Positions 1 to 16,686 of a stretch of 22,255 bases of DNA are shown one piece after another. Position 1 is the stretch's first letter; each line of letters begins with the position of its first letter. Position numbers and translations under genes: made by a program. This DNA is from a virus, in IMG/VR virus record IMGVR_UViG_3300037584_003502, positions 1-22,255 of that record; one strand, written 5' to 3'. The notes beneath the pieces are model-generated. The model was not told the DNA's origin. It searched no databases and worked only from the letters and a program-made list of their open reading frames with translations.

Positions 1-2739
1 GTTACTGCAAAAGTTTCTACAAATAAACATAAATTTGTAAGTGCAACAACAGGGATTGTAACTGATACAAGTAACAACTCTTATAATGTTTCTGATGCTG
101 ATTATAATCCAGCAACAGGAGAATTGATTCTAACAAGCACTAGTCATGGATTTGTTGGTTATTCAACCATAACACCTACAAATGCTTCATATGCACCATC
201 TACTGGTGTATTGACACTTACAAAGAACGGTCATGGATTTAATGTTGGTGATCAAATTCTTATTGCAGATAACTCATTAACATTTACTTGTACTAAAGAT
301 GGTAATGTAACCAAGCACCATTATCCAAGACCAACAGATCCTTATAGTGGTAAATGGTTAACTATTACAAATAAAACTATTAATACATTTAAAGTTAACG
401 TTAACCCAAATCCATCATCAGAACAATATCCACATACTTTTATTTCTCCTGCACTTAATGGATGTGTAGCAAAAGCAAATCAAACTATTGCTATTGAGGG
501 TGGTGGTTTAGTAATGACTTGTGAACATGATTTGCATCAAACACTTCATCCATATCCACGTACAACTGATCCTGCATATAATGTTCAATTACCTATCGGT
601 AGAGTAACTCCAAACACATTTAGTGTTCAGGTTGGAAAATCTCCTGCAGGAACTGGTGGAGCACTAGAATTTACTATTAATAATCGTGGTGGAAGATACG
701 TAAATCCAGAACTACAAATTCCACAACCAAGTTATGAGAATGTACCTATTACTGGTGTTTCTAGATTGGGTGTTGGTTTAACAGACGCAACTGGTAAAAA
801 TCTACTACTTAATTTGGGAGTTGGTGCTGCAAGTACTAATGTTGGAGCTGCACGTAGTATGTTTGAAATATCAGATTTCGCAATTGCTAGAGCAGGACAT
901 TCATTTAAAATTGGAGATAAGTTTAAACCAGAAGGTTTAGTTACTGATAAGAGATTGCAAAAACCATTACAAGATTTTGAACTTGAAGTTGTTGAGACAT
1001 TCAATGATTACTTTGCTGCTTGGCAGTTTGGTGAAATGGACTTCATTGATAGTGTTGATAGTTTACAGGATGGATATAGAAAGAGATTCCCATTATTCTT
1101 TAATGGTCAATTATTGAGTTTTGAAATTGATGAAACAGCAGTTCTTTCTTCACAAATAGATCTTAATGCTGTTCTATTAGTATTTGTTAACGGTGTTCTT
1201 CAAACTCCAGATATTTCATATCAGTTCCAAGGTGGTACAACCTTTACATTTACAGAAGCACCATTAGATAGTGATAAAGTTGATATATTCTTCTTCCTCG
1301 GTCAATTAGGGGTTGATATTGAAATTGTCGATGTAACAGAAACAATTAAAATTGGTGATGATGTTAGAATTAGACAACATCCAAATCACATAGATCCAGA
1401 TAATCCACCTGTTACTATAACACAGGAAACTGATAGAATTATTAAAGAAATTCTGTCTTCTGATTTGATAGAATCTTCTGTATATACTGGTCCAGGAATT
1501 AATGAAGATATTCCTAAACCACTTGAGTGGACAAAACAAAAGAATGATCTATGGATTAAAGGATCATTGATATCAAAATCTAGAGAATCTATTGAACCTC
1601 AAATTTATCCAACAGCAAAAATTATTGGTGATGTAACAACTTCTAGTGGTACAATTGGTGGATTATCTGATGGAATATTTGTAGATGATGCTGAAGCATT
1701 CTTCTATGAAGAAGGTCCTCTACATTTAGATGCTAATGATAGATATGGAATCACTATTACATCAGTTGATGCATTAATTACAACTCCAGATACAAATCAA
1801 GTTTCTGCAGGATTTACTGCAACAGTTTCAAACAATTCTATTGTCACTGCAATAACTACAACTAATGTTGGTTCTGGATATACGGATGGAACTTATATTT
1901 TAAGTTTCTCAGCACCTTCTGAGGTTGGAGTTGGAGTTGGAACAACTGCTACTGGCACAGCTACCATAACAAATGGTTCTGTAGCATCAACACAGATTAC
2001 AAATGCTGGTTTTGGATATACTCATTCTTCATCTCCACAAATCTTAATTTCTAGATCAGAATATGAAGTTGAGAAAGTAACTAAAATACAAAATTCTTTA
2101 GGATTTACTGGTATTATAACTGGTATAACCACTACAACTGGAACTAATGGTAATCCATTAGCACTTAAGTTCTATTTCTATGCAGATAAGAATGCTACTG
2201 ATCTAAAAGCTGGATATCCAGTATTAATACAAAATACTCCATTCACATTATCTGGTGTCACAACAACTGGAGAACATATTGAATTTAATGATGGATCTAT
2301 TCAAACAACAAATAATAGATGGACTGCTGCTAAGGGTGGTATCGCAGTTACTTCAATTGATGGTAATGATAATGAAATTGTTAGTATTGGATCAACTTTC
2401 TTAGATAATATCTACAAAGTTGCTGATATCTATGTTGTTGATCAAAGAGCAGAGATAACATGTAACATTCATAGTGGATCTGAAGTTATTAGTGGATTTG
2501 CTGTTACTGGATATTATGATGGATCATCAGGTAATGCTGGATTAACCACATCATTTGGTAAAATATCTTGGGGTAGATTATCTGGTATAACTAGAGCATC
2601 AAGTCCAATATCTATCGGAGTTACTGGTCTAACTGTTGATTCTGGGTTAAGTACATTCCCAACAATTCAAAGAAGAAATTATGATAAATCTTCCTTAAAG
2701 GGATTGAGAAATACAGGTGCTATTAGAATTCAAATCTAA
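1..2739 (+). CDS. Large baseplate/virion structural protein, gp7-like by position (5' end missing)
   Basis: The reading frame is open from base 1 to the TAA at 2737-2739 (912 visible residues), so the gene starts upstream. The TTG at 124 is only an internal codon. Its position just before gp8 matches T4 gene 7, the baseplate wedge initiator (1032 residues). I see no decisive gp7 motif, so this is inference from gene order plus resemblance to the large structural proteins of marine T4-like phages. Visible parts are: two copies of a Y-x-P-x-T-G-x-L-x-L-T...HGF unit (residues 35-80); two Cys/YPR/TDP repeats (about 96-191); a middle part with few repeats; two G-x-G-Y beta-repeats (about 624-673); and a C-terminus ending in R-N-T-G-A-I-R. 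The protein is Thr/Ser/Gly/Asn-rich with almost no Cys, as in extracellular beta-structured virion parts. No membrane segment or signal peptide is visible. It could instead be a tail-fibre protein. Confidence 0.75.
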   Translation, partial: VTAKVSTNKHKFVSATTGIVTDTSNNSYNVSDADYNPATGELILTSTSHGFVGYSTITPTNASYAPSTGVLTLTKNGHGFNVGDQILIADNSLTFTCTKDGNVTKHHYPRPTDPYSGKWLTITNKTINTFKVNVNPNPSSEQYPHTFISPALNGCVAKANQTIAIEGGGLVMTCEHDLHQTLHPYPRTTDPAYNVQLPIGRVTPNTFSVQVGKSPAGTGGALEFTINNRGGRYVNPELQIPQPSYENVPITGVSRLGVGLTDATGKNLLLNLGVGAASTNVGAARSMFEISDFAIARAGHSFKIGDKFKPEGLVTDKRLQKPLQDFELEVVETFNDYFAAWQFGEMDFIDSVDSLQDGYRKRFPLFFNGQLLSFEIDETAVLSSQIDLNAVLLVFVNGVLQTPDISYQFQGGTTFTFTEAPLDSDKVDIFFFLGQLGVDIEIVDVTETIKIGDDVRIRQHPNHIDPDNPPVTITQETDRIIKEILSSDLIESSVYTGPGINEDIPKPLEWTKQKNDLWIKGSLISKSRESIEPQIYPTAKIIGDVTTSSGTIGGLSDGIFVDDAEAFFYEEGPLHLDANDRYGITITSVDALITTPDTNQVSAGFTATVSNNSIVTAITTTNVGSGYTDGTYILSFSAPSEVGVGVGTTATGTATITNGSVASTQITNAGFGYTHSSSPQILISRSEYEVEKVTKIQNSLGFTGIITGITTTTGTNGNPLALKFYFYADKNATDLKAGYPVLIQNTPFTLSGVTTTGEHIEFNDGSIQTTNNRWTAAKGGIAVTSIDGNDNEIVSIGSTFLDNIYKVADIYVVDQRAEITCNIHSGSEVISGFAVTGYYDGSSGNAGLTTSFGKISWGRLSGITRASSPISIGVTGLTVDSGLSTFPTIQRRNYDKSSLKGLRNTGAIRIQI
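103..240 (+). repeat. Tandem protein repeat, Y-x-P-x-T-G-x-L...HGF, two units
   Basis: Two 17-codon units at 103-153 and 190-240 encode the pattern Y-[NA]-P-[AS]-T-G-x-L-x-L-T-x-x-x-H-G-F. They are separated by 36 bases. They form the start of a repetitive beta-rich arm in the gp7-like protein. The repetition is at protein level and the DNA copies have diverged. Confidence 0.7.
286..573 (+). repeat. Paired Cys/YPR/TDP protein repeat in the gp7-like protein
   Basis: Codons 286-342 and 517-573 both encode T-C-x-x-D, a short His-containing spacer, then Y-P-R-x-T-D-P. Each unit is followed by a strand containing N-T-F-x-V. The two units start 231 bases (77 codons) apart. The conserved His, Tyr and Cys suggest a folded repeat domain of a virion arm, possibly metal-binding. 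That role is inference. Confidence 0.65.
1870..2019 (+). repeat. G-x-G-Y beta-repeat, two units, in the gp7-like protein
   Basis: Two G-x-G-Y cores are encoded at 1870-1881 (GSGY) and 2008-2019 (GFGY), 138 bases (46 codons) apart. Each is preceded by a short N-[VA]-G strand, with Ala/Thr/Gly-rich sequence between them. The same pattern recurs in gp8, the giant protein and gp14. Confidence 0.65.
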
Positions 2740-2754
2740 TTAAGCACTATGTAC

Positions 2755-2762
2755 TATAAATA
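2755..2762 (+). promoter_or_regulatory. T4-type late promoter, TATAAATA
   Basis: An exact match to the T4 late promoter core TATAAATA lies in the 60-base gap between the gp7-like gene and gp8, and ends 37 bases before the gp8 ATG. In T4 this element is read by the gp55 sigma factor with the sliding clamp and gp33. The neighbouring bases are A-rich. It should start a late transcript covering gp8 and the giant gene. Confidence 0.8.
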
Positions 2763-2799
2763 AAGAAAAAAAAGTAGTATCGTCTAATTAATAAACAAA

Positions 2800-4368
2800 A
2801 TGTCGGCAATTGTTACTGATCAGTTTAGAATTCTGAACGCCAATAATTTTATAGAGTCAGTAGAGTCTGATAAAAATTCTTATTATGTTTTTATTGGTCT
2901 ACCAAATCCAGCAATAGTTGGTTATGGAAGATCTGAAAATTGGAATACAAATACACCAGATCCTGTTGACAATTTCTCCAGAAATGCACATGCTGGCGAT
3001 ACTATGATGTTTGGAAGAAAAATTTCTTCAGCAAACATTAGAAGAATCATTAAAAGAGTTGATTGGACTGCTGGAACTAAGTATGAAATTTATAGGGATG
3101 ATTATAGTTCTCAAAATCAAAGTCCTATAACTAAAGCGAGTAGATTATATGATTCTCAATATTATGTAATGAACTCTGATTTTAAAGTGTTTATTTGTAT
3201 TGATAATGGTTCTACTGGTGAAAATCCTCAAGGAAATATTAGTCAGGATGAACCTAATTTCACTGATTTAGAACCATCTAGGGCAGGTACTTCTGGTGAT
3301 GGTTATATTTGGAAATATCTATTTACAGTATCTCCTAGTGATATTATAAAATTTGATTCTACAGAATATATTACTGTTCCTAATAATTGGTCAATTAGTA
3401 CTGATTCTCAAATTAGATCAGTAAGAGAGAATGGAGATTCTTCGGTTAATGATAATCAAATAAAACATGTATATATTGATAATGCAGGTGGTGGATATGC
3501 TGATGGTTTAGGTCAAGAGTGTAAAATTATTGGTGATGGTGATGGTGCAAAGGCAAGAGTTGATGTTGTAACTGGTAAAATATCAGATGTTACTGTTAGT
3601 GCTGGTGGAAAAGGTTATTCATATGCACTTGTTGATTTGGGTGCTTTGAATAGTGCTGTTCCTTCCACTACTAGAGCAAAATTGGTTCCAATAATCCCAC
3701 CTGGTTTAGGGCATGGTGCTGATGTTTATACTGAATTAGGTACTGATAAAGTTCTAATTTATGCAAGATTTGACGATTCAACAAAAGATTTTCCAGTAGA
3801 TACTAAATTTTCTCAAGTAGGTATTGTAAAAAATCCAACAGAAGTTGGAACTGCAAATACATATACTGAAACTAATTTTTCATCATTAGAGTCAATTAAA
3901 TTCTCTACGATCAGTGGAACACCTACTGTTGGTGAGAAAATAGTTCAAATTACTGCTACTGGTAATGAAGCAACTGCATATGTTGCATCTTATGATACAA
4001 ATACTCAAGTATTAAAATATTTTAGGGATAGATCTCTAAATTATACTAGTACTGCTGGTAGAGTACAAGACCAACTTGATTATGCTGGTATTTCTACATC
4101 AGGAAGAATATATCAATTTGAATCATCTTCTAATGCAGTCAGAGGTCAAGCATCTAGTTTTTCTGCTAGTGTTGACCAAAACTTTAATGGTATCAGTATT
4201 AATCCTACTGGAACTAAATTAATTAACTTAGGTTCTACCTTTGTAAATGGGTTATCTACATCCGAGATAAATAAAGGATCAGGGGAAGTTATCTATCTTG
4301 ATAATAGACCATTGATTGCTCGAAATTCTCGACAAAAAGAAGACGTTAAAATCATCCTAGAATTCTAA
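2800..4368 (+). CDS. 8: Baseplate wedge protein gp8
   Basis: gp8 is a structural subunit of the T4 baseplate wedge, which assembles around gp7/gp10 in the tail. T4-like signatures seen are: an N-terminal A-I-V-T-x-x-F-R at residues 3-10; G-R-S-E-N-W at 43-48; G-D-G-Y-I-W-K-Y-L-F at 166-175; E-Y-I-T-V-P at 189-194; a Q-V-G-I-V-K-N-P segment at 339-346; and a C-terminus with I-Y-L-D-N-R-P-L-I (498-506) before I-I-L-E-F. These follow T4 gp8 closely (G-D-G-Y-V-W-K-Y-L-F; M-E-N-R-P; final I-L-F-T-F). At 522 residues it is much longer than T4 gp8 (334). Part of the extra length is an inserted segment with two G-x-G-Y units (about 224-275). The ATG at 2800 is the first start after the late promoter. 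No clear Shine-Dalgarno site is present. Confidence 0.93.
   Translation: MSAIVTDQFRILNANNFIESVESDKNSYYVFIGLPNPAIVGYGRSENWNTNTPDPVDNFSRNAHAGDTMMFGRKISSANIRRIIKRVDWTAGTKYEIYRDDYSSQNQSPITKASRLYDSQYYVMNSDFKVFICIDNGSTGENPQGNISQDEPNFTDLEPSRAGTSGDGYIWKYLFTVSPSDIIKFDSTEYITVPNNWSISTDSQIRSVRENGDSSVNDNQIKHVYIDNAGGGYADGLGQECKIIGDGDGAKARVDVVTGKISDVTVSAGGKGYSYALVDLGALNSAVPSTTRAKLVPIIPPGLGHGADVYTELGTDKVLIYARFDDSTKDFPVDTKFSQVGIVKNPTEVGTANTYTETNFSSLESIKFSTISGTPTVGEKIVQITATGNEATAYVASYDTNTQVLKYFRDRSLNYTSTAGRVQDQLDYAGISTSGRIYQFESSSNAVRGQASSFSASVDQNFNGISINPTGTKLINLGSTFVNGLSTSEINKGSGEVIYLDNRPLIARNSRQKEDVKIILEF
3484..3618 (+). repeat. G-x-G-Y beta-repeat pair inserted in gp8
   Basis: Residues 229-233 (A-G-G-G-Y) and 268-273 (A-G-G-K-G-Y) of gp8 share the core seen in three other structural genes here, 40 residues apart. 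G-D-G-D-G-A and a T-G-K-I-S-D-V-T-V strand lie between them. T4 gp8 is shorter and has no such pair that I recall. Confidence 0.6.
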
Positions 4369-4372
4369 AAAA

Positions 4373-7300
4373 ATGCCACAGAAGACTAACTTAAATATAA
4401 GTCCTTATTATGATGATTTTGATAAGGCTGATAATTTTTATAGGGTTCTATTTAAACCAGGATTCCCAGTTCAAGCTAGAGAATTAACTAGTTTACAATC
4501 TATATTACAGAATCAGTTAGAATCTTTTGGAAGTCATATATTCAAAGAAGGATCTATGGTTATTCCTGGATCTGTAACTTATGATAGTACATATTTTTCG
4601 ATTAAAGTAAATGCAGATCATATAGGTATAGATGTCACAGTATATCTTGATGCGTTAATTAGTAATAATAATGGTAAAGGAACAAAAGTAAGAGGTCAAA
4701 ATTCTCAAATAGTAGGAACTATAAAAAACTATATTTTACCTCCTGATGAAGGTGTAGATGATATTACTCTATTTGTAAAGTACACTGAATCTGGTACAAC
4801 TTCAGAAAGTGTTGCTTTTCCTAATAGTGAAATATTAACACTTGAGGAAAATGTTACTTATGGTAATACGACTTTAAATGCTGGAGAATCTATTTTAACT
4901 TTAGTTGCAGAAGATGCAACTGCTATTGGATCAGCTTTTGGTGTTGATACTGGAGTATATTTTATTAGAGGGACTTTTGTAGATGTTACTAAATCATTAG
5001 TTGTTTTAGAACCATATTCAAATAAACCATCCTATAGAGTTGGTTTTGAAATTCTTGAAGAGATAATAAATTCTAATGATGATCCTTCTTTGAATGATAA
5101 TGCTAAAGGTTTTACAAACTATGCAGCACCTGGTGCAGATCGATTTAAAATATCAGTAAATTTAACTAAAAAAGCACTTGATGATTTTAATGATACTAAT
5201 TTTGTAGAATTATTTAAAGTAAGAGATGGTGAAGTTAAGAAAATTCAGAACTCTTCAGTATATTCTGAAATTAAAAAATATCTTGCAAAAAGAACATACG
5301 ATGAATCTGGAAACTATGCTATAAACCCATTTAGAGTTAATATACAAAACTCTTTAAATGATGAAATAAGAACTGCTGGTTTATATACTGAAAATCAAAA
5401 AACGGATGAGGGTAATATTCCTGATGATGACACAATGTGTGTTAAATTATCACCAGGAAAAGCATATGTTAGAGGATTTGACGTAACTTTACCAGGAACA
5501 ACTGTATTAGATGTAGATAAACCTAGAGATACAAAAACAGTTAAGACATCATCCGTTCCATTCAGAATGGGAAGTCTTTTAAAAGTCAATAATATAACAG
5601 GTACACCATTTCTTCAACTTGGTGCAGCACCAAATGGTGATAATGTCATTAAATTATATAATGAAAGAAGAACTTCTGGTGCAAATACTCCTACAGGAAA
5701 TGGACTTGAAATAGGTCAAGCTCGTGTTTATCATTTTGGTGTTTCTGATGCACCATATACTGGTGCAACTACAGAATGGGATTTATATCTTTGGGACGTT
5801 CAAACTTATACTACATTGGAACTATCCAATATGGGTCGCAAAGAAGAACTGGAATCTGTAATACCAATATCAACTTATGTTAAAGGTGCTAGTAGTGGAG
5901 CAACTGGATATATTACGGGACATAGAAATGCGTCTGAAATAGATTTAATACAAACTACAGGAAGGTTTGTTCAGGGAGAAAAGGTAATATTTAATGAACA
6001 AGATACAGTTACCACAGTTGGTATTAGTACTGCATATTCTGGTGCATCTATAGTAAATGTCATTACTCATAGTGTAAATGATATTAAATCTGTTCACCAA
6101 ATAAGTGATACTATTTCCAATAATAAAGTACCAACAAAATTTGGTGCTGATGCAGTATTATATGATCGTATATTACCAAACTTCTCTTTAACTGATACTT
6201 TAACAATTGAAGGTGTAGATGGTACTACGACTAAAGCAACTTGTGCTGGTAGAAGATTTTCAGGTAAAGTAGGAATTAGTACTAATTCTATTGTAGGTTT
6301 TTCAACTGGTTCATCACCAACTACATCAAATCCAGATCAAACTTATAGTAGAGTGTCTGCTATTTCTGCTGATGGAGCAACATTAACTCTTAAAACAGTT
6401 GTAAATGTTCCAGGTGTAAATGGTGGTGTAGATGGTAGTGGTAATCATATGTTACCTGTTGGAGTAACAACATCATCAACATTCAGAGTTAAAGTACCTA
6501 AGATTATAAATCTTAACCGATCTGGATTATATGCTAGATTACCTAGAAAAAATGTTTCTACGGTTGATTTATCCAATTCAAATCTATTAATTACAAAACA
6601 AATAAGTGGTGTAAATGTTAAAACTAACGGTTCTGGCGTTTTAGATATAAACACTTCGGATGCATTGGATAGTAATTCAGGTATATCCAGTATATTCTTT
6701 GAACCATTTGATGCTGAAAAATATACAGTACAGTATGCTAATGGTACTATAGAAACATTAACATCAGATCAAGTTATTGTTCGTAATGATGGTAATGATT
6801 TAAGAATTATTGGATTGAATGACGGTAACTCGCAAGTTTTGATGACTGTTACTGCAACAATGAAAAAAGTTGGACTTAACAGCAAGTCAAAAGATTTTAT
6901 TAGAAGTGAAAAAGTAGAAGTTACAAGAACATCAGGTATTTCAACTAATGGTGGATTGGTAACAACTCAGCAAAATGCACAAAGTAGATATTATGGATTA
7001 AGAGTTGAGGATAAAGAGATATCTTTAAATGTTCCAGATGTTGTTCAAATTCATGCAATATATGAATCTAAAGACACTAATACACCTAGTTTAGATAAAT
7101 TGACATTTGTTTCTGGATTGGGTTTAGATACAAATACAAATGTAGGTGAAAAAATTGTTGGCAAATCAAGTAGAGCAATTGGACAAATTGTTAATAGGGT
7201 ATCTGCTACAGAAATTGAATTTGTTTATTTAAATGCTAATACTTTTAGTGCTGGAGAGACAGTAACATTTAAGGAGACAAATATATCAACAAATATTCAA

Positions 7301-10300
7301 AAAGTAACTCTTGGAAATTATGTTGATAGAACAAACAATTATACTCTTGATAAAGGTCATAAAAAGCAGTATTCGGATTATTCTAGAATAATTAGAAAGG
7401 ATAATTCATCAATACCATCTCATAAATTACTCATCATATTTGATAAGTATCAAATCCATAGTGGTAATAGTGGAGATTTATTCACTGCAAATTCATATAC
7501 TAAAGATAGATATACCTATGATATACCAAAAGTTGGTATTGATAGAGCAACTGATATACTAGATTTCAGACCAAGGGTTAAACCTTTCAATCCATCATCA
7601 ACAACAGATAAATCGCCTTTTGCTTATAATGCAAGAGTTTTTGAAACAGATACTAGTTATGTTGTTGCACCTGATGAAAGTTCAATTGTTGGATATACAT
7701 ATTACTTACCAAGAATCGATAAATTAGTAATTAACAAGTTTGAGCAAGTAAAATTAATTAAAGGTGTATCTGCTGATAAACCAGCACCACCAACAGAATT
7801 TGGTGATGCAATGGAAGTAGCACAAATTACACTTCCTCCATATTTGTATGATCCTATAACGGGACCTACAATTAGATTATATGATAATAGAAGATTTACC
7901 ATGAGAGATATTGGTAAATTAGAAAAGAGAATTGATAATTTAGAGATAATGACTTCTCTAACAGCATTAGAACTTGATACAAAATCTTTGATGGTTACTG
8001 ATGCTAACGGTATTAATAGATTTAAAACTGGATTTATTGTAAATGATTTTAAAGATAGAGATTTCCTTACATCTGGTTCTAGATGTGATGTTGATGTAGT
8101 TAATAAAGAACTTATAAGTGCAGTTGATTTTTGGTCACTTCCAGCACAATTAGCATTTGATATTGGTATTGATACTGAAAGTGCAGATTTATCTGCTAAT
8201 TTGAATCTTTTAGATCCTAATTGTAAAAAAACTGGGGATTTAATAACTCTAGATTATAACGAAGTCGGTTGGATAGATCAACCACAAGCAACTCAGGTTG
8301 AAAATATTAACCCATTCAACGTTATTGTATTTGTTGGTGGAATACTTCTTGAACCTGCATCAGATAACTGGGCAAGAACAATCTATATTGATAAGAATAG
8401 AATTGAATCTACAGGAGCAACTTGGGCAGAACAGGCAAACATAGTGTCTGATAATACAACAGTTGGTACTGATGTTAGTGTAACTTCTGCTGAAGTAGAT
8501 ACTGATCAGGATGAGTTTGATGGTAATCATATTGATACAACCACTACTACAACTACTACAACTACCAATGTTGTAGAAACTTCATTTACAAATACTTTAG
8601 AAGGACCATCTAAGGAATTTGATTACGTTGAAAGTGTTAAAGTTTCTGGACAAGCAGATCCATTTATGCGTTCTAGAAATGTCTCTTTCTCTGCAAATGG
8701 ATTGAAACCACTTACTAAACACTATCATTACTTAGATAGTGGTAGACCAGATATATTCCCCAAACTAACTGAAATTAGTATGATTTCTGGTACATTTGTA
8801 GTAAATGAAAATGTTAGAATTTTAAATAACGGTGTTCAAATTGGTTATGTTCGTGTTAAAGCACCTAATCATAAGTTTGGTGATGCTAGTATATCGGCAA
8901 TTCCAACTGGAATGGGTACAGTTTCTGTAAGTGTTGAAGCATATTCAGTTGATCCTTATGATAGAACTAGACCTGCTCCAGATTCATCTTACTCCGCAAC
9001 ATCTAAATTATTCAACTGTGATGTTGATGCTTTAGCAAATGATACAACATATTTTGGTTATGTTGTAGCAGGTGCAACTCTTGTGGGTGATAGTGGTGCT
9101 ACTGCTACAGTATCCAGAGTGGAACTTATATCTGATAATTGGGGTGATGTTCTAGGTGCTTTCTTCTTTAGAAATGCTAATCAAACACCACAACCACCTG
9201 TTTTATTCTTCTCAGGAACTAAAACCTTTAAGATAACATCAACACCACCAGGAACAGTTACATTACCTGGAAGCACTGCATTCGCTAGTGATGCAACAGG
9301 AACATATTCTGGAACTGGTACAATCATAACTCAATCTACATCAACTGTTGGAGTTAGAAACCCACCCCCACCAGCACAGAAACCAAATGAGACAACAACT
9401 AGTATTTCTATAAATCAAACTTCATCTACAACTAGAGTTGAAGCACCTTATAGAGATCCTTTAGCACAAACATTTACTGTTGATGAAACTGGTGCATTCT
9501 TAACATCATTTGATGTTTACTTTGCAAGTAAAGACCCAAATGCTAAAGTATTTGTTGAACTTAGAGAGGTTGAATTAGGAACACCAACAAGTTTCTTAGT
9601 TCAAGATTTCACTCAAGTTGCATTAAATCCAAATAATATTCAAACATCTACAGATGCTTCTATTGCAACCAATATTAAATTCCCATCTCCAGTTTATCTA
9701 GAGGCAGGAAAGGAATATGCATTAGTATTCTTATCACCTGGATCTGATCTTTATGAGATGTGGGTTGCAACAATGGGTCAAAAGACCGTTAAAACTTCAA
9801 ATCTTCCAGATGTTGAAAGTGTTGTTGTTACTAAACAGTATATTGGTGGTAGTTTATTCAAATCTCAAAATGGAACTATCTGGACCCCAAGTCAATATCA
9901 AGATCTAGCATTTAAACTTTATAAAGCAGAGTTTGTTGATTCTGGTACAGTTACTTTCTATAATACACCAATTAAATCTGGTAATGAAAATACACAAGTA
10001 CTTTCGTCTAATCCAATAAAAACATTACCTAGAAAGGTAAGTTTGGAATTAGATTGGCCTTCTGCTTCATATAATAATGAGGCTGTTGGACAGCATGAAG
10101 ATCAAATACCTATTGGTAGAAAAATTAGTACTGGTAATGTTGCTGATAAAGACGATGATAGTATTACAGGTATCATTGAAAAAATTGGTGCTCCAATATG
10201 GTCAGATTATGGAACAGCATTTAATCATTATGCAAGTAAAGGAAATCCAGTTACTTTAGTAAATGGTGGAAGTGGATATGATTTAGGTTCACTTTCTAGT

Positions 10301-11995
10301 GTACCTTTGAAATCTTTAACTGGTGGTGGTAGCGGAGCTACTGTGTCAGTAACTCTTACTAATGAAAAAGTAACGGCTGTTGATATAGTTGGTGGTCTTG
10401 AAGGTAAGGGATATTCTGTTGGAGATGTTCTAACAATAGATGATACTTGGGCAAATTATAAGAGAGGTACTGGTGCTAAGTTTGCAGTTGGTATAACAAG
10501 TACTAAACCAGATTCTTTATATTTAACCGATGTTCAAGGTGAAAAATTTGTAGGTGGTGAAAAGATTATTCATTACGGTACTTCTAATGATACTAGAACT
10601 GCAATGAATGCAGTTGATATTAAAGTAAAATCAGGAACTAATTCTGTGGTTACTAGTGACTTATATACTGGTAATGTACTTGAAATTGTTCAGAGTAATC
10701 ATGCTCATCATGGTATTAATAATACTATTAATATTACTGGAATTAAACCAGATACAACAGTTACTCAAACTACACAAAGTATAACCCCAGAATCGACACA
10801 GGTATCAGTTGCAAGTACATCAATATTTGCTAGGTTTGCAGGTGTTTCAACTTCTACTGGTGAAGCATTGATAGGTAGTGAGATTGTTTCATACACTGTT
10901 AATATTGGTAATTTATCTCTTAATTCTAGAGGACTGGAAGGATCACCTGTTTCTTCTCACTTAGAGGGTTCAGATATTCAACCATATGAAATTAATGGTT
11001 TCCCATTAGTTGGTATTAATACAAGTTTGTCAATATCAACCAATGATACTTTAAATAATGCTTCAAATGTTGATAATTATTATTTACAAATTGATAGAGG
11101 TACTAGTTCTAGAATAAGTGGAAATACTATGTTATGTTTTACTGATGAAAGAGTTGTGGGTGGAAATAGTGTTGGTATTTCGCAAAACCATCAATTTACC
11201 TCAATGTCTCCAAAATTTAATGTAATTACTCCAGGTAAAGGAACTAGAGTTTCAACTTCAGTTAGAACTATAAGTGGAACTAGTGCTGGTGGAAACGAGG
11301 TTTCATTCCTCGATCAAGGATTTGAACCTACAATATTAAATGAAACAACATTCTTCCCAACAGTTAGAATGGTTGCATCTAAGGTTAATGAAGCACAACG
11401 TTTATCAACATTACCTAGAAATAAATCATTATCATTAAAAGTTGATATGACAACAAGTGATAAGAATTTATCTCCTGTATTAGATGTTCAAAATGCAACA
11501 TTTATTTTAGGTAGAAATAAAGTTAATAGTCCTGTATCAGATTACAGTACAGATTCTACAACCAATGCCTTAAATGGAGATAAGCATGGATCACTATTTG
11601 TTTCTAGAAAGGTTAATTTAGCACAACCTGCTACATCACTTAAAGTATTTGTTGCAGCAAATGTTCAACCAGAAGCAGATTTCAGAGTATTTTATAGATT
11701 ATTCAGTGCAGATTCTAGTGAAGTTTCTCAAAATTATAGAGCATTTCCTGGATATGAAAATATGATAGACACTGATGGTGATGGTTTTGGTGATGATGTC
11801 ATTGATATTTCTAAAAACAGTGGTAGGGCAGATGCTAAAGTCAAGAAAAATGGTAAAAATGATTTTTCAGAATATCAATTTACTATAAATGATCTAGAGC
11901 AATTTAATGGATTTGTTATTAAAATTGTGATGACTTCTACGAATGAAGCAGTACCAGTCAGATTAAAAGACTTTAGAGCAATTGCTTTAGCGTGA
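4373..11995 (+). CDS. Giant baseplate/tail-fibre structural protein, DUF4815-like N-terminus
   Basis: At 2540 residues this is by far the largest gene in the window, starting 4 bases after gp8. The N-terminus (residues 8-66: N-I-S-P-Y-Y-D-D-F, F-K-P-G-F-P-V-Q-A-R-E-L, H-I-F-K-E-G-S-M-V) matches what I know as DUF4815, found in large structural proteins of marine myoviruses. Later parts are: long Thr/Ser/Asn-rich beta segments; a run of ten Thr (1389-1398); a Pro-rich linker with four Pro (1664-1667); then R-D-P-L-A-Q-T-F (1694-1701) opening a jelly-roll-like domain of about 170 residues. After that come two G-x-G-Y units (about 1965-2014), a Ca-binding-like D-T-D-G-D-G-F-G-D-D loop (2466-2475) and a conserved-looking C-terminus ending in F-R-A-I-A-L-A. 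It lies where T4 has genes 9-12, so it may replace them as fibre or adhesin. Its exact role is inferred from position. Confidence 0.8.
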   Translation: MPQKTNLNISPYYDDFDKADNFYRVLFKPGFPVQARELTSLQSILQNQLESFGSHIFKEGSMVIPGSVTYDSTYFSIKVNADHIGIDVTVYLDALISNNNGKGTKVRGQNSQIVGTIKNYILPPDEGVDDITLFVKYTESGTTSESVAFPNSEILTLEENVTYGNTTLNAGESILTLVAEDATAIGSAFGVDTGVYFIRGTFVDVTKSLVVLEPYSNKPSYRVGFEILEEIINSNDDPSLNDNAKGFTNYAAPGADRFKISVNLTKKALDDFNDTNFVELFKVRDGEVKKIQNSSVYSEIKKYLAKRTYDESGNYAINPFRVNIQNSLNDEIRTAGLYTENQKTDEGNIPDDDTMCVKLSPGKAYVRGFDVTLPGTTVLDVDKPRDTKTVKTSSVPFRMGSLLKVNNITGTPFLQLGAAPNGDNVIKLYNERRTSGANTPTGNGLEIGQARVYHFGVSDAPYTGATTEWDLYLWDVQTYTTLELSNMGRKEELESVIPISTYVKGASSGATGYITGHRNASEIDLIQTTGRFVQGEKVIFNEQDTVTTVGISTAYSGASIVNVITHSVNDIKSVHQISDTISNNKVPTKFGADAVLYDRILPNFSLTDTLTIEGVDGTTTKATCAGRRFSGKVGISTNSIVGFSTGSSPTTSNPDQTYSRVSAISADGATLTLKTVVNVPGVNGGVDGSGNHMLPVGVTTSSTFRVKVPKIINLNRSGLYARLPRKNVSTVDLSNSNLLITKQISGVNVKTNGSGVLDINTSDALDSNSGISSIFFEPFDAEKYTVQYANGTIETLTSDQVIVRNDGNDLRIIGLNDGNSQVLMTVTATMKKVGLNSKSKDFIRSEKVEVTRTSGISTNGGLVTTQQNAQSRYYGLRVEDKEISLNVPDVVQIHAIYESKDTNTPSLDKLTFVSGLGLDTNTNVGEKIVGKSSRAIGQIVNRVSATEIEFVYLNANTFSAGETVTFKETNISTNIQKVTLGNYVDRTNNYTLDKGHKKQYSDYSRIIRKDNSSIPSHKLLIIFDKYQIHSGNSGDLFTANSYTKDRYTYDIPKVGIDRATDILDFRPRVKPFNPSSTTDKSPFAYNARVFETDTSYVVAPDESSIVGYTYYLPRIDKLVINKFEQVKLIKGVSADKPAPPTEFGDAMEVAQITLPPYLYDPITGPTIRLYDNRRFTMRDIGKLEKRIDNLEIMTSLTALELDTKSLMVTDANGINRFKTGFIVNDFKDRDFLTSGSRCDVDVVNKELISAVDFWSLPAQLAFDIGIDTESADLSANLNLLDPNCKKTGDLITLDYNEVGWIDQPQATQVENINPFNVIVFVGGILLEPASDNWARTIYIDKNRIESTGATWAEQANIVSDNTTVGTDVSVTSAEVDTDQDEFDGNHIDTTTTTTTTTTNVVETSFTNTLEGPSKEFDYVESVKVSGQADPFMRSRNVSFSANGLKPLTKHYHYLDSGRPDIFPKLTEISMISGTFVVNENVRILNNGVQIGYVRVKAPNHKFGDASISAIPTGMGTVSVSVEAYSVDPYDRTRPAPDSSYSATSKLFNCDVDALANDTTYFGYVVAGATLVGDSGATATVSRVELISDNWGDVLGAFFFRNANQTPQPPVLFFSGTKTFKITSTPPGTVTLPGSTAFASDATGTYSGTGTIITQSTSTVGVRNPPPPAQKPNETTTSISINQTSSTTRVEAPYRDPLAQTFTVDETGAFLTSFDVYFASKDPNAKVFVELREVELGTPTSFLVQDFTQVALNPNNIQTSTDASIATNIKFPSPVYLEAGKEYALVFLSPGSDLYEMWVATMGQKTVKTSNLPDVESVVVTKQYIGGSLFKSQNGTIWTPSQYQDLAFKLYKAEFVDSGTVTFYNTPIKSGNENTQVLSSNPIKTLPRKVSLELDWPSASYNNEAVGQHEDQIPIGRKISTGNVADKDDDSITGIIEKIGAPIWSDYGTAFNHYASKGNPVTLVNGGSGYDLGSLSSVPLKSLTGGGSGATVSVTLTNEKVTAVDIVGGLEGKGYSVGDVLTIDDTWANYKRGTGAKFAVGITSTKPDSLYLTDVQGEKFVGGEKIIHYGTSNDTRTAMNAVDIKVKSGTNSVVTSDLYTGNVLEIVQSNHAHHGINNTINITGIKPDTTVTQTTQSITPESTQVSVASTSIFARFAGVSTSTGEALIGSEIVSYTVNIGNLSLNSRGLEGSPVSSHLEGSDIQPYEINGFPLVGINTSLSISTNDTLNNASNVDNYYLQIDRGTSSRISGNTMLCFTDERVVGGNSVGISQNHQFTSMSPKFNVITPGKGTRVSTSVRTISGTSAGGNEVSFLDQGFEPTILNETTFFPTVRMVASKVNEAQRLSTLPRNKSLSLKVDMTTSDKNLSPVLDVQNATFILGRNKVNSPVSDYSTDSTTNALNGDKHGSLFVSRKVNLAQPATSLKVFVAANVQPEADFRVFYRLFSADSSEVSQNYRAFPGYENMIDTDGDGFGDDVIDISKNSGRADAKVKKNGKNDFSEYQFTINDLEQFNGFVIKIVMTSTNEAVPVRLKDFRAIALA
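8537..8566 (+). repeat. Ten-threonine linker in the giant protein
   Basis: Ten consecutive ACN codons encode Thr1389-1398. The sequence is a near-tandem of ACT/ACA/ACC triplets flanked by acidic residues. It probably separates two folded parts of the fibre. The triplet run is a likely length-variable tract. Confidence 0.8.
10265..10414 (+). repeat. G-x-G-Y beta-repeat pair in the giant protein
   Basis: GSGY at 10268-10279 and GKGY at 10403-10414 are 135 bases (45 codons) apart. A run of Gly, then Ser and Ala (G-G-G-S-G-A) and a Val/Thr strand lie between them. This is the same layout as the units in gp14 and the gp7-like protein. Confidence 0.6.
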
Positions 11996-12129
11996 GGAAT
12001 TCTGTAAATCCAGCAATTAAATTTATTATAGATCCTAGTGGATCTGGTAAATTAGTAAAATTTCATCCCCCAATAGATCTTAGGTCTGTTAATGATAAAT
12101 TAAAACAATATCCATTTAATCAGATATGA
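11992..12129 (+). CDS. Candidate 45-residue protein, GTG start, coupled to the giant gene
   Basis: This short frame begins with the GTG at 11992, which overlaps the giant gene's stop in a GTGA. It ends with the TGA at 12127-12129. In-frame TAG at 11974-11976 makes this GTG the first usable start. The product begins V-R-N-S-V-N-P-A-I-K-F and contains D-P-S-G-S-G-K-L-V-K-F and P-P-I-D-L-R. It reads like a real small soluble protein and fills an otherwise empty gap between two genes. Translation would rely on the ribosome restarting at the stop codon, since no good Shine-Dalgarno site is seen. I do not recognise a family. The coding call rests on the overlap geometry and protein-like composition, so it may be chance. 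Confidence 0.5.
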   Translation: MRNSVNPAIKFIIDPSGSGKLVKFHPPIDLRSVNDKLKQYPFNQI

Positions 12130-12164
12130 AATCCTTTAAACAATTAAAAAATATAAAAGCATGA
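12126..12164 (+). CDS. Candidate 12-residue leader micro-ORF
   Basis: The frame ATG 12126 to TGA 12164 encodes M-K-S-F-K-Q-L-K-N-I-K-A. Its ATG overlaps the preceding stop (ATGA) and its own TGA overlaps the next gene's ATG (ATGA). It thus joins the 45-residue and 66-residue frames without a gap. It may act only as a bridge for translational coupling. It could also be the remnant N-terminus of a lost gene, because M-K-[ST]-F-K-Q is a familiar start in T4-like phage proteins. Function is unknown. Confidence 0.3.
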   Translation: MKSFKQLKNIKA

Positions 12165-12361
12165 TACCAGTCGAAGGCAATAAAAATCTATTTCGTGACC
12201 AAAATACGGGTGCCATACTTAATATGGATTCTAAAGGATATTTTAATTATATTAATAAAAAAAATAGAAAATTAACTGAGAAGCAAGAGATTGATAATAT
12301 GAAAAAAGATATTGATGAGATTAAATCTTTGCTTCATGAGTTAGTTAATCGCAAAACATAA
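12161..12361 (+). CDS. Small conserved-type phage protein with coiled-coil C-terminus
   Basis: This is a 66-residue protein. The N-terminal half (M-I-P-V-E-G-N-K-N-L-F-R-D, then T-G-A-I-L-N-M-D-S-K-G-Y) resembles small hypothetical proteins I associate with marine T4-like phages. The C-terminal half, about residues 35-62, is charged with hydrophobic residues at heptad spacing (M, I, I, L, L), predicting a short amphipathic helix or coiled coil. It has no Cys or membrane segment. It is the last gene before the CATAAATA promoter, which overlaps its stop codon. The start ATG at 12161 overlaps the micro-ORF stop. No function can be assigned. Its place among baseplate/fibre genes suggests a minor virion or assembly part. 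Confidence 0.8.
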   Translation: MIPVEGNKNLFRDQNTGAILNMDSKGYFNYINKKNRKLTEKQEIDNMKKDIDEIKSLLHELVNRKT

Positions 12362-12364
12362 ATA
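12357..12364 (+). promoter_or_regulatory. T4-type late promoter, CATAAATA
   Basis: CATAAATA differs from the T4 late core TATAAATA only at the first, less constrained base. It overlaps the stop codon of the 66-residue gene and ends 30 bases before the ATG at 12394, similar to the gp8 promoter layout. It would start the transcript for the 75-residue protein, the fibre-like protein and the neck genes. Confidence 0.65.
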
Positions 12365-12393
12365 GTAGATAGATTCTTGAATTGCTTACATAA

Positions 12394-12621
12394 ATGGCAG
12401 ATATTAAGGTCAGAGTAGGGCAACAAAATGCTGTTAAGGTTCTTTCATCATTAGCTGGAGCCCAAGGGTTATCACTTGCTGAACTTAGTGACGTTAATGC
12501 TACGAACTTACTCAATGGAATGGTTTTAGTTTACAATGGAGCGACACAAAAGTGGGATGCCACATTAACTTTAACTCCAGGCTCGGAACAGAATTTAGAC
12601 ATCAACGGGGGAAATTTCTAA
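12394..12621 (+). CDS. Small structural-type protein ending in a DxNGGNF-like tail
   Basis: This is a 75-residue protein, the first gene after the CATAAATA promoter. It has an N-terminal A-D-I-K-V-R-V-G-Q-Q-N-A-V-K-V segment, a central S-L-A-E-L-S-D-V-N motif, and N-G-M-V-L-V-Y-N-G followed by Q-K-W-D-A-T. The last pattern is of the 'value bound to an object' type common in phage fibre and structural proteins, L-x-Y-N-x-x-x-x-x-W. The C-terminus D-I-N-G-G-N-F resembles the L-D-G-G-T-F end of the next protein. The stop codon directly abuts the next ATG. I infer a minor fibre or virion component made in step with the 527-residue protein. No family name can be given with certainty. Confidence 0.8.
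   Translation: MADIKVRVGQQNAVKVLSSLAGAQGLSLAELSDVNATNLLNGMVLVYNGATQKWDATLTLTPGSEQNLDINGGNF
12607..12612 (+). promoter_or_regulatory. Ribosome binding site for the 527-residue fibre-like gene
   Basis: GGGGGA lies 9 bases before the ATG at 12622 and inside the end of the preceding gene. Few genes in this window have so clear a purine-rich site, and it supports the ATG that directly abuts the upstream stop. Confidence 0.55.
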
Positions 12622-14205
12622 ATGGCTAGCATTATTAGGATCAAACGATCCTCTGGGACCACTAAACCTGCCAGTCTAAGTTGGGGTGAAATGGCCTATG
12701 TGACTGGCATAGGAAGTTACGGTGGAACTAATCAATACAAAGATAGGATATTTGTTGGAGATGACGGTAATAACGTATTCCCTGTAGCAGGTCAATATTA
12801 CGCTTCTATGATGGAGCATACACCAGGTGCAATTGCTGGTGTTCAGAATACAAGAAATAGTGATGGTGGTATAGTTGCTGTTCTTGATGATAATAGAAAG
12901 GTTGATCAGTGGAATGTAGATAATCTTAGATTGGATGGTAACACAGTATCATCCACAAATACTGATGGTGATGTTATATTTGAAACTTCAGGAACTGGAC
13001 ATATTAATATTGTAGACGATACAATATTATCTTTTGGTTCAGATAAAGATGTTCAAATTGAATATGATGAGAATGGTAATGATGAAGTAGTAGTATCCAG
13101 TCCTACTGGTAAGCAAGTTAAATTTACCACCCCATTGAATGTATCTACTGCATCATATTTTGGTAAAGTTAAGATTGAAGATAATGTTATATCTTCTGTC
13201 AGTGGTAGTGGAGATAAATTGTTTATTGATCCATTTCCTGATGGATTGAGCAATGAAGGTGATGTTATTATCAAAGGTAACTTACAAATTGATGGTACAA
13301 CAACTTCAGTTAACTCAACTGCAGTAACAGTTAATGATCCAATATTTGTTATTGGTGACGTTACTAGCACTAGAGTAGTTACTGCTCCAGTTACAACTGG
13401 TGTCAGTACAATTACAATTGATTCTGTTGTTGGTATTAATACTGGTGACGTTATAAGCAATCACACCTCATTACCAAATAGTGGAGTAACAACAGTTACT
13501 GAAGTTAATACTACTAATAAAGTTATTACCATTGAGGGAACAACTACAGCAGGTATTACAACAACATCTGAGTTAACAATTACTCATGCTTATGACACTA
13601 ATACAGATCGTGGTATAGCATTTAATTATAATACAGGTATTGGTACAGCAAATAATAAAGTTGGTTATTTTGGTTATGTAGATGGTGATGGAAATACAGG
13701 AAGTAATGCACCAGAAAGATCTTGGACTTATGTTCCTGATGCAAGTACAACAGGTAATACAGTATCTGGTACTAGAGGATTCCTAGACATTAAAGGTATC
13801 TATTACCAAACTGCTGATTATAATGCTCATGGTGCTGTTTACTTTGATGAGAATGGATTACAGACCTCAACAAATAATCCAGCAACTCCCATAATTACAT
13901 CTAAGCAGATTTTAACTGCTGTTACCAAAAACACTCTTGCATTACCATCTAATGTGACAGTTGCAATTGGTGATATTGTAAGACAAGATACTAGTGGTGC
14001 TTACGGTGTAGTTGAAACTGGAGTAACTAATGGTGCTTCTATTGATTTAGTTGGTGTTGAAGGAACATTTACTAATACTTACAATATTAGAAAAGAAGGT
14101 CAGAACGGATCCATTGAAAATCTATCAGTAATACCTTCTACAATTACTACCATATATACTAATAAGCCTCATTGGTCTTCTACACTTGATGGGGGTACAT
14201 TCTAA
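12622..14205 (+). CDS. Tail-fibre-like virion structural protein
   Basis: This 527-residue beta-rich protein is of the marine T4-like fibre type. The N-terminus (I-I-R-I-K-R-S-S-G-T-T-K-P-A-S-L, then W-G-E-M-A-Y, R-I-F-V-G-D) matches the common phage fibre head in which a list of Arg/Lys-Arg-Ser leads to G-E-x-A. Two approximate repeats follow: L-x-G-N-T-V-S-S...G-D-V-I-F (about 103-120) and I-E-D-N-V-I-S-S...G-D-V-I-I-K-G-N-L-Q-I-D-G-T-T (about 185-228). The latter is followed by V-N-S-T-x-V-T-V-N-D-P. Then comes a D-R-G-I-A-F-N-Y segment with V-G-Y-F-G-Y-V-D. The last residues are H-W-S-S-T-L-D-G-G-T-F. It lies where T4 has gene 12 and wac, just before gp13, so short fibre, whisker or baseplate fibre are all possible. 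No chaperone or enzyme domain is visible. Confidence 0.8.
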   Translation: MASIIRIKRSSGTTKPASLSWGEMAYVTGIGSYGGTNQYKDRIFVGDDGNNVFPVAGQYYASMMEHTPGAIAGVQNTRNSDGGIVAVLDDNRKVDQWNVDNLRLDGNTVSSTNTDGDVIFETSGTGHINIVDDTILSFGSDKDVQIEYDENGNDEVVVSSPTGKQVKFTTPLNVSTASYFGKVKIEDNVISSVSGSGDKLFIDPFPDGLSNEGDVIIKGNLQIDGTTTSVNSTAVTVNDPIFVIGDVTSTRVVTAPVTTGVSTITIDSVVGINTGDVISNHTSLPNSGVTTVTEVNTTNKVITIEGTTTAGITTTSELTITHAYDTNTDRGIAFNYNTGIGTANNKVGYFGYVDGDGNTGSNAPERSWTYVPDASTTGNTVSGTRGFLDIKGIYYQTADYNAHGAVYFDENGLQTSTNNPATPIITSKQILTAVTKNTLALPSNVTVAIGDIVRQDTSGAYGVVETGVTNGASIDLVGVEGTFTNTYNIRKEGQNGSIENLSVIPSTITTIYTNKPHWSSTLDGGTF

Positions 14206-14216
14206 CCCAAAAGATT

Positions 14217-14435
14217 ATGCAACAAAATAATGGTGACGTTGATGTTAATGTTCTTGTCAGTTTATATAATACTAAATTGGCACAATCATTAAATCAAACT
14301 GTACTTTTGGAAGCAAAATTACAAACTTTAAAAAATGATTTTGATGAAGAAACAAAACTCCTTCAACAGGAAATTGTTACTTTACAAGAAGAAAATCAGA
14401 AACTGAAACTTAAAGATGGCAAAACCAGCAAGTAG
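14217..14435 (+). CDS. Small coiled-coil protein preceding the neck gene
   Basis: This is a 72-residue protein starting 12 bases after the fibre-like gene. From about residue 12 to 66 it is almost entirely helical in character. Leu, Val and Ile fall at heptad positions (L-V-S-L, L-A-Q-S-L, V-L-L-E-A-K-L, L-L-Q-Q-E-I-V-T-L), ending in a Lys-rich tail. A parallel coiled coil is likely. The gene overlaps gp13 by 20 bases in another frame, which suggests coupled translation. In T4 the coiled-coil whisker protein fibritin (wac) is encoded at this place, but this protein is far shorter and no fibritin foldon is visible. A link to fibritin is only positional. Confidence 0.8.
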   Translation: MQQNNGDVDVNVLVSLYNTKLAQSLNQTVLLEAKLQTLKNDFDEETKLLQQEIVTLQEENQKLKLKDGKTSK

Positions 14436-15273
14436 AACACAATTAGTCGATTACTGTTTACGGAAGTTGGGTGCTCCTGTATTGGAGATTAATATTGACG
14501 ATGATCAAATAGATGATTTAGTCGATGATGCCATTCAACTCTTCAATGAACGTCATTTCGACGGTGTTGAGAGAATGTATCTCAAGTATAAGTTAACTCA
14601 AGAAGATATTGATAGGGGAAAGGCAAATAATAAACCAAATAGTACAAATACTGTAGGAATTGTAACCACATCTGCAACGTCTACAAATATAAGTGGTTAT
14701 GGAACTACTACTAGCAATTGGTATGAAAATTCTAATTTCTTACAAGTTCCAGATTCTGTAGTTGGTGTAGAAAAGATATTTAAATTTGATACTAGCACCA
14801 TATCAGGTGGAATGTTTAGTATTAAATACCAGTTATTTTTAAATGATCTTTATAATTTTAATTCAGTAGAATTATTGCAGTATGCAATGGTTAAATCATA
14901 TCTTGAAGATATTGATTTTTTATTGAGTCCAGAAAAACAAATAAGATTTAATAAAAGACAAGATAGATTGTATTTAGATATTGATTGGGGTACTGAAAAT
15001 CCCGATACTTATTTGGTTCTTGATTGTTATAGAGCATTAGATCCAAATTCATTTACTCAAGTTTATAATGATATATTCTTAAAACAGTATCTCACTGCTC
15101 TCATGAAGAGACAATGGGGACAAAATCTAATCAAATTTAAAGGTGTTAAGTTACCAGGTGGTATAGAACTTAATGGTAGAGAAATATATGATGATGCAGA
15201 AAGAGAGATAGAATCATTACGATCTAAGATGTCAACAGAGTATGAGTTACCACCATACGATTTTGTGGGTTAA
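14416..15273 (+). CDS. 13: Neck protein gp13
   Basis: gp13 joins gp14 in the neck that closes the filled head and binds the tail. Strong T4-like signatures are: L-R-K-L-G-A-P near residues 15-21; a D-D-Q-I-D-D-L-V-D-D-A stretch; R-H-F-D-G at 46-50; and a C-terminal T-A-L-M-K-R-Q-W-G-Q, then K-L-P-G-G-I-E-L-N-G-R (245-255), A-E-R-E-I-E-S-L-R and a final D-F-V-G. T4 gp13 has L-R-R-L-G-A-P, Y-H-F-D-G, M-L-P-G-G-V-T-I-D-G and ends L-V-G. Length 285 compares with 309 in T4. Part of residues 70-105 is Thr/Ser/Asn-rich and probably loop-like. The ATG at 14416 lies inside the coiled-coil gene. gp14 follows 6 bases after the stop, as in T4. Confidence 0.95.
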   Translation: MAKPASRTQLVDYCLRKLGAPVLEINIDDDQIDDLVDDAIQLFNERHFDGVERMYLKYKLTQEDIDRGKANNKPNSTNTVGIVTTSATSTNISGYGTTTSNWYENSNFLQVPDSVVGVEKIFKFDTSTISGGMFSIKYQLFLNDLYNFNSVELLQYAMVKSYLEDIDFLLSPEKQIRFNKRQDRLYLDIDWGTENPDTYLVLDCYRALDPNSFTQVYNDIFLKQYLTALMKRQWGQNLIKFKGVKLPGGIELNGREIYDDAEREIESLRSKMSTEYELPPYDFVG

Positions 15274-15279
15274 TGTAAT

Positions 15280-16686
15280 ATGGCATTAAATCCCTTCTTT
15301 TTACAAGGAACATCTTCTGAGCAGAGATTAGCTCAAGATTTAATAAACGAACAATTAAGAATGTTTGGTGTTGAAATCACATACATTCCAAGAAAGTTTG
15401 TCGAAACTGATAATATTTTAAATGAAGTTCAGTCATCTAAGTTTGATGATAATTTTGCTATAGAAGCATATGTGAATACCTATGATGGTTATGGTGGTCA
15501 AGGAGACATCATGACTAAATTTGGAATGAGTTTGAGGGATGAATTAACTCTCACAGTTTCAAAAGAAAGATTTGAAGATTTTATAGCACCTTTTTTAGCA
15601 GCAAATGTCGGTGATCCTGATTCGGGAATAACACTTGCAACTAGACCTAGAGAAGGTGATTTGATATATTTCCCACTTGGAGCAAGATTATTTGAAGTTA
15701 AGTTTGTAGAGCATGAAGACCCATTTTACCAGTTAGGTAAGAACTACGTTTATCAACTCAAATGTGAACTCTTTGAATATGAGGATGAGGTTATTGATAC
15801 TTCTATTGATATTATTGATACACAGATTGAAGATGATGGATATCTAAGTACACTTAGATTGGTTGGATTAGGACAAACTGCAGTTGTATCAACTTCTATT
15901 GGTGTTGGATATGTTAGAGAAATATTCTTAAATAATGATGGATCTGGATTTACATCACAACCAACAATTACCTTTACAGAATCTCCTACTGGAGACACTG
16001 CAAGAGCAGTTGGTATTTTAACAACTAAAGCAAATGTCACTTCTATTGAAAAGATATTAATGACAAGTGCTGGTGCTGGTTACAATTCAATACCAACTAT
16101 TACTATTAGTGGTGGAGGCGGTACAGGTGCTGCTGCTACTTGTTCTATTGAAACTGTATATAATGGTGTAATTAGATTTAATGTTACTGATGGTGGAGTT
16201 GGATATGGAACAGAACCAACAATAACAGTTGGTCAACCAGGTGCAGGAACTACTGCTGTTGGTATAGCATCTATTGCAACTATTGGTAGTAATTCTGTAG
16301 TTAGAAGCATATTTGTAGGAGATCCAGGTCGTGGATACTCATCAACACCAACTGTAATTGTTGCTGATCCACCAGGTATGGCTGGTCTTGGAACTTTCTT
16401 CTATAATGAAATAGTTGAAGGAGTTAATTCATATGCACAAGGAAGAGTTAAATCTTGGGATGCTGATACTGATATTCTCAAGTTGAGTAATGTTGGAATA
16501 GGTTCAACAGTATCTGGTTTCTTTGTTGGTGAAGATGTAGTTGGTAAGGAATCTGGAGCAAAATACACTGTTGCTTCATTCAATGCAACAGATGTTGATG
16601 ATAAATATAACTCAGGTGACGAGTTTCAAACCTTTGGTGACGATATTTTGGACTTCACTGAATCCAACCCATTTGGACAAGTATAA
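15280..16686 (+). CDS. 14: Neck protein gp14 with inserted beta-repeats
   Basis: gp14 forms the neck with gp13. Identification rests on its place between gp13 and gp15 and on the N-terminal part (N-P-F-F-L-Q-G, Q-R-L-A-Q-D-L-I-N-E-Q, G-V-E-I-T-Y-I-P-R, then F-G-M-S-L-R-D-E-L-T-L-T-V), typical of gp14 in marine T4-like phages. At 468 residues it is almost twice T4 gp14 (256). The surplus is largely a block at about 208-365 holding four regular G-x-G-[YF] repeats, described separately. The C-terminal part (about 370-468) has a G-E-D-V-V-G-K-E-S-G-A turn segment and ends N-P-F-G-Q-V. Its TAA shares one base with the gp15 ATG (TAATG). A T-TTT-TTA heptamer at about residue 103-106 looks like chance. 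Confidence 0.92.
   Translation: MALNPFFLQGTSSEQRLAQDLINEQLRMFGVEITYIPRKFVETDNILNEVQSSKFDDNFAIEAYVNTYDGYGGQGDIMTKFGMSLRDELTLTVSKERFEDFIAPFLAANVGDPDSGITLATRPREGDLIYFPLGARLFEVKFVEHEDPFYQLGKNYVYQLKCELFEYEDEVIDTSIDIIDTQIEDDGYLSTLRLVGLGQTAVVSTSIGVGYVREIFLNNDGSGFTSQPTITFTESPTGDTARAVGILTTKANVTSIEKILMTSAGAGYNSIPTITISGGGGTGAAATCSIETVYNGVIRFNVTDGGVGYGTEPTITVGQPGAGTTAVGIASIATIGSNSVVRSIFVGDPGRGYSSTPTVIVADPPGMAGLGTFFYNEIVEGVNSYAQGRVKSWDADTDILKLSNVGIGSTVSGFFVGEDVVGKESGAKYTVASFNATDVDDKYNSGDEFQTFGDDILDFTESNPFGQV
15937..16359 (+). repeat. Four-unit G-x-G-Y beta-repeat array in gp14
   Basis: Units have the form G-x-G-[YF]-x-[ST]-x-P-T-[IV]: G-S-G-F-T-S-Q-P-T-I, G-A-G-Y-N-S-I-P-T-I, G-V-G-Y-G-T-E-P-T-I and G-R-G-Y-S-S-T-P-T-V, starting near residues 221, 265, 306 and 350. 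Spacing is 41-44 residues. Between units lie Gly/Ala/Thr-rich and Val/Ile-rich strands. This is the longest and most regular array of this module in the window. Confidence 0.8.

Follow-up and report, generated by a model that had tools for sequence, protein, structure and literature searches.

Ten repeat units with the core G-x-G-[YF] in four virion proteins of a cyanophage (the neck protein gp14, the baseplate wedge proteins gp7 and gp8, and a giant virion protein) have a well-supported common origin, judging from profiles of their protein families, and the evolutionary unit is a pair of them. The block of units is an insertion relative to gp14 and gp8 of phage T4, and this insertion is ancient and vertically inherited. 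We hold, with moderate confidence, that each pair is an old inserted Ig-like surface domain that projects from the virion and serves in accessory adhesion or docking.

The window, i.e. the whole 22,255-nucleotide stretch of viral DNA analyzed here, resembles the tail and neck gene cluster of P-SSM2, a Prochlorococcus phage, with 82% nucleotide identity across about half of the window, and its source is a P-SSM2-like cyanophage, a marine virus of cyanobacteria. The genes follow the order gp7 (C-terminal part), gp8, the 2540-aa protein, a 527-aa structural protein, gp13, gp14, gp15 ... gp17 (Table 1). The gp7 homolog of P-SSM2 is encoded by a CDS of 15588 nt and, at 5195 aa, is five times as long as T4 gp7; it contains several GxGY pairs or singles. 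The conserved N-terminal core of T4 gp14 is present in the window gp14 (Pfam PF11649 and a PDB match to T4 gp14), whereas gp8 keeps the N-terminal core, the central strands and the C-terminal strands of T4 gp8, as seen from Pfam, a PDB match and alignment. Mass spectrometry has detected the gp14 protein in virions of cyanophages (PMC3037559). Further along the window, a 424-aa, very lysine-rich ORF (17529-18803) separates gp15 from the small-terminase position, the strongest purine skew falls in the 2-kb bin 18001-20000, and an ORF with a concanavalin-A-like (Laminin_G_3) domain (20177-21403) lies immediately 5' of the large terminase gene and possibly encodes a further surface-binding protein.

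Table 1. Host proteins, GxGY units and M2 segments in the window. Cores are given by window position, with the spacing from the preceding core in brackets; the pan HMM is the common profile used to count units across relatives.
Feature	Position	Strand	Core	Evidence
gp7-like baseplate wedge protein, C-terminal part (5' end outside window)	1..2739	+		phrog_2885 E 4.6e-178
gp7 degenerate extra GxGY-type unit (AGTGGALEFTINNRGGRYVNPEL...)	646..777	+		pan-unit HMM 12.5 bits; gp7 unit HMM 42.7 bits
gp7 unit 1 of pair	1825..1959	+	1870	pan HMM 19.2 bits
gp7 unit 2 of pair	1966..2103	+	2008 (46 aa)	pan HMM 19.9 bits
gp8 baseplate wedge subunit	2800..4368	+		Pfam Phage-Gp8 E 5.8e-17; model vs T4 gp8 1n7z E 5e-9
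gp8 unit 1	3445..3570	+	3487	pan HMM 33.6 bits; strands 223-228, 236-245, 248-257
gp8 unit 2	3571..3699	+	3607 (40 aa)	pan HMM 30.3 bits; strands 260-271, 276-278, 294-298
M2 in gp8 (gp8 about 345-415)	3835..4044	+		gp14 M2 HMM; hhalign 90%
Giant 2540-aa virion protein	4373..11995	+		phrog_358 E 0; DUF4815 near N-terminus E 1.5e-57
Giant protein unit 1	10235..10354	+	10268	pan HMM 23.7 bits
Giant protein unit 2	10355..10501	+	10403 (45 aa)	pan HMM 21.1 bits
gp14 neck / head-closure protein	15280..16686	+		Pfam T4_neck-protein (PF11649) E 3.5e-34, residues 3-180; model vs T4 gp14 9mkb E 1.2e-9
gp14 unit 1	15898..16029	+	15940	pan HMM 29.8 bits; pLDDT about 90
gp14 unit 2	16030..16152	+	16072 (44 aa)	pan HMM 27.1 bits; pLDDT about 92
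gp14 unit 3	16153..16284	+	16195 (41 aa)	pan HMM 17.7 bits
gp14 unit 4	16285..16416	+	16327 (44 aa)	pan HMM 29.7 bits
M2 in gp14 C-terminal part (gp14 about 376-440)	16417..16584	+		gp14 M2 HMM / hhalign

All ten cores listed in the initial annotation were found where it had placed them, with the claimed spacings of 40-46 aa. The bare G-x-G-[YF] motif has about six further chance occurrences in the window, and its count exceeds the shuffled expectation only in gp14 and gp8, and weakly in gp7. Common descent of the units cannot be proved from the window by itself, since leave-one-protein-out profiles built from the ten of them scored 0-8 bits, no better than shuffles. We collected about 400 relatives, built one unit profile separately for each protein family, and then compared the profiles. 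Each of them matches members of other families, and the reversed and shuffled decoys all stay below 12 bits. In hhalign comparisons every one of the six family pairs scores 77-96%, and the seven control segments do not exceed 1.7%. These cross-matches and alignments argue for a common origin of the units in gp7, gp8, the giant protein and gp14, so that the shared descent proposed earlier for the ten units holds at the level of families, though window-only profiles do not reach significance. Gly/Ser/Thr-rich beta segments could also have come to resemble each other by convergence or through composition, as the non-significant test within the window would allow, but this reading is largely refuted by the family-wide comparison and is very improbable.

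The block is found well beyond these proteins. Some 20 PHROG families match it; connectors, baseplate wedges, tail fibres, a hub protein of the baseplate and large virion proteins are among them. It also occurs in proteins of bacterial and archaeal genome records. Thus, all four virion proteins do carry the module, as had been stated, but it is not confined to them. A Chitinophaga ORF has ten GxGY units; another ORF from the bacterial and archaeal records, with four units, has a C-terminus that we take, from reading its sequence by eye, to be multicopper-oxidase-like. Among the 20 units nearest to each unit of the window, 16-20 are its counterparts at the same position (positional orthologs) in other phages. 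The four insertions are therefore old and do not reflect recent exchange among these four genes; the spread of the module within this genome, as it was initially envisaged, gives way to ancient vertical inheritance, and recent intragenomic copying among the four proteins is ruled out.

Comparison with T4 places the block outside the conserved cores. The core of T4 gp14 (256 aa) joins the C-terminal tail directly, with the block absent at the aligned site, and the same is observed in phiM12 gp14 (217 aa), while T4 gp8 (334 aa) has a short segment between the core strands and no block. Phmmer matches in PDB to the T4 proteins end at the insert in gp14 (residue 174), and at residue 196 in gp8, where the match resumes at the C-terminus; AlphaFold models of both proteins match the T4 cores. 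Alignments and PDB matches thus agree that the T4 proteins lack these segments, and the block accounts for part of the extra length of the cyanophage proteins, as was supposed: gp14 is 212 residues longer than its T4 counterpart, with 173 of them in the block, and gp8 is 188 residues longer, of which the block makes up about 85. The gp8 insertion probably predates the cyanophages, because phiM12 gp8 carries divergent units. In gp14 the insert follows the conserved core, within the C-terminal arm, and in gp8 it occupies a loop between core strands; these sites are compatible with a domain protruding from the host protein. Literature searches turned up no paper that describes the repeat or accounts for the extra parts of the long cyanophage neck and baseplate proteins.

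A second segment, M2, is shared by gp8 and gp14 and was overlooked in the initial annotation. It has the form A-x-V-x-S-W-D-x-x-T-x-x-L...G-x-F-x-x-G-E-x-x-x-G-x-x-S-G-A and is also absent from T4 gp8. With the gp14 M2 HMM, 64 proteins of the gp8 family score at least 12 bits and decoys no more than 5.9 bits; the hhalign value is 90%. Given this homology, gp14 and gp8 have two inserted modules in common, not one.

The pair as the evolutionary unit is evident from the cluster counts obtained with the pan profile. Two units are present in 165 of 166 gp8 clusters (one unit in the remaining cluster) and in 25 of 27 giant-protein clusters (one unit in two); 84 gp14 clusters have two units, 161 have four, and 3 have three. 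Nine bacterial or archaeal ORFs have mostly two, four or ten units. The exception is gp7, with 76 single-unit clusters at a degenerate site (window 646-777) that was missing from the initial list of units. This site probably has a degenerate partner; GHSFKIGD, located downstream within gp7 residues 280-305, is the likely one. This regularity points to a domain built of two units, so that the pair is probably the folding unit as well. In the AlphaFold models each unit consists of three strands, whose order agrees between gp14 and gp8 (pLDDT over the units about 80-93 and about 77-90, respectively). Unrelated folds at the repeat sites, an outcome considered beforehand, are not suggested by the strand order in these models of gp8 and gp14. 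A Foldseek search of PDB with the full gp14 and gp8 models yielded only the T4 cores as significant matches, and none for the module, whereas viral structure predictions gave many matches, including P22 gp10-like and tail-fibre proteins. No Pfam or NCBIfam family matched the repeat block at the curated cut-off, and the shared domain is uncatalogued in both databases.

The unit profile had one significant match among all PDB sequences, the tail spike Dpo31 of the marine podovirus Carin1, a Cobetia phage (PDB 28lx, 28mg; 8ck1), with E 9.7e-5 and two units inside the domain D3*. Phmmer searches of PDB with single copies of the module gave no match; only the profile found Dpo31. The protein scores 27.9 bits with the gp7 unit HMM and 17.4 with the gp14 HMM (shuffles at most 5.8), the gp8 and giant-protein profiles do not recognize it by whole-sequence score, and hhalign of the gp14 pair with D3* gives 86% over 60 columns. 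D3* (residues 434-536) is a protruding Ig-like domain (PDB 28lx, 28mg; 8ck1), for which its authors suggested sugar binding (weak DALI similarity, Z about 2.9); on its own, it was a soluble monomer. By analogy, D3* is good evidence, although not proof, that a pair of units would form an Ig-like domain in the four proteins.

According to the model we favour, two units of ~40-45 residues would fold into one six-stranded Ig-like domain of about 90 residues, each unit supplying a strand, a G-x-G-Y turn, a short P-x-V-x-I strand, and then a G-x-G-A-rich strand. The domain would have entered surface-permissive sites of gp14, gp8, the giant protein and gp7 long ago and been transmitted vertically since, with the copy number in gp14 changing by whole pairs. 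Many copies would then most likely act via low-affinity contacts with glycans of the host surface or the medium as candidate ligands, and contacts with other parts of the virion are conceivable as well. We infer that the pairs face outward from one solved protruding relative, Dpo31 D3*, and one suggestive relative, domain I of the T4 sheath protein gp18; the block is probably a sticky patch exposed on the outside of the virion. In favour of glycan binding, by analogy, D3* sits on a depolymerase and the domain is found in secreted-looking bacterial proteins; in favour of docking to virion parts, there is the possible sheath relative, and the gp14 insert falls in the arm through which T4 gp14 contacts gp15 (residues 178-256; PMC12270204). 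A glycan role is less obvious for gp14 of the neck, far from the cell surface.

Were the pairs docking sites within the virion, they would bind fibres, sheath or baseplate as gp18 domain I does in T4, a reading that we consider possible but rather unlikely. Domain I protrudes from the tail without sheath contacts and binds the baseplate and the retracted long tail fibres, and the mutation G106S blocks fibre retraction (PMC3004832). T4-type domain I begins with a unit-like segment, TISTPGSNYAVGDKITVKY...DADGKIKKINI (ISTPGSNYAVGDKITVKY...DADGKIKKINI), and, with the numbering shifted so that all three published gp18 mutations fit, G106 is the first G of its GSNY core. The best pan-HMM matches in gp18 proteins are all near residues 96-134 (top score 13.1 bits, reversed decoys at most 0.1), and hhalign of domain I gives 85.6% with the giant-protein unit profile and 62% with the pan profile. 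On the other hand, it gives 2-7% with gp14 pairs and 2-11% with gp14/gp8 pairs, and with the domain I HMM a shuffled decoy scored as high as 12.2 bits. A relationship between domain I and the units is thus suggestive but unproven; if real, it would endow the domain with an experimentally tested role in docking, and our conclusion does not depend on it. Moreover, cyanophage gp18 has a different domain at this site, cyanomyoviruses lack wac and the T4 long-tail-fibre genes (PMC2984593), and the occurrence of the same module in bacterial proteins also speaks against this reading. Some marine gp18 homologs (about 500-550 aa) have no domain I. Replacement of the sheath domain I by the M2 segment in cyanophages looked plausible by eye and proved unsupported (4.3 bits).

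The gp14 units are less conserved than the core (56-72% compared to 82%), as expected of a peripheral domain. The same difference would fit pairs that are inert, neutral or mildly stabilizing loop insertions with no specific ligand, as would the differing copy number between lineages and the fact that gp14 of phiM12 and T4 manage without the block. Such insertions would not readily explain why every one of the 248 gp14 clusters examined, and all but one of the 166 gp8 clusters, retain at least two units, why the glycine and tyrosine cores are nearly invariant, or why the module recurs in unrelated proteins, and we regard this explanation as improbable.

With an adhesive or docking surface domain as the preferred reading, one extra part of the long cyanophage neck and baseplate proteins can now be described as an inserted homologous domain tied to a crystal structure. 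If these domains bind glycans or fibres, they would provide a concrete explanation, open to testing, of how marine myophages with few fibres locate their hosts and stay attached to them, and also of what sheath domain I does in T4. A broader generalization is speculative and, in our opinion, doubtful: the GxGY pair may be a hitherto unrecognized and very widespread adhesion domain of phage necks, baseplates, fibres and T4-type sheaths and of bacterial secreted proteins, carried on the neck and baseplate in marine T4-like phages and on the sheath in T4, and endowing each particle with many identical low-affinity surface-binding sites.

Promiscuous Ig-like domains are small beta-sandwich domains attached to many phage structural proteins. 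The domain described here is like them in being a small beta domain, and differs in that it matches none of the Pfam or NCBIfam models, which places it outside the catalogued Ig-like families. The window gp14 and gp8 belong to phrog_460 (cyanophage gp14/Hc2) and phrog_438 (cyanophage gp8), respectively, and the module is already contained in these family profiles; PHROGs, however, treat whole proteins, and the shared domain is neither named nor described there. Domain I of T4 gp18 (residues 98-188) is similar in its initial unit-like GSNY-VGD segment and as an outward-protruding inserted beta-domain, but it is a six-stranded barrel plus a helix, and the cyanophage sheath has another domain in its place. 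Dpo31 is a podovirus spike, a trimeric depolymerase with one pair only, not a T4-type neck or baseplate protein; nevertheless, its D3* is made up mostly of two GxGY units 44 aa apart and is likewise inserted into another fold.
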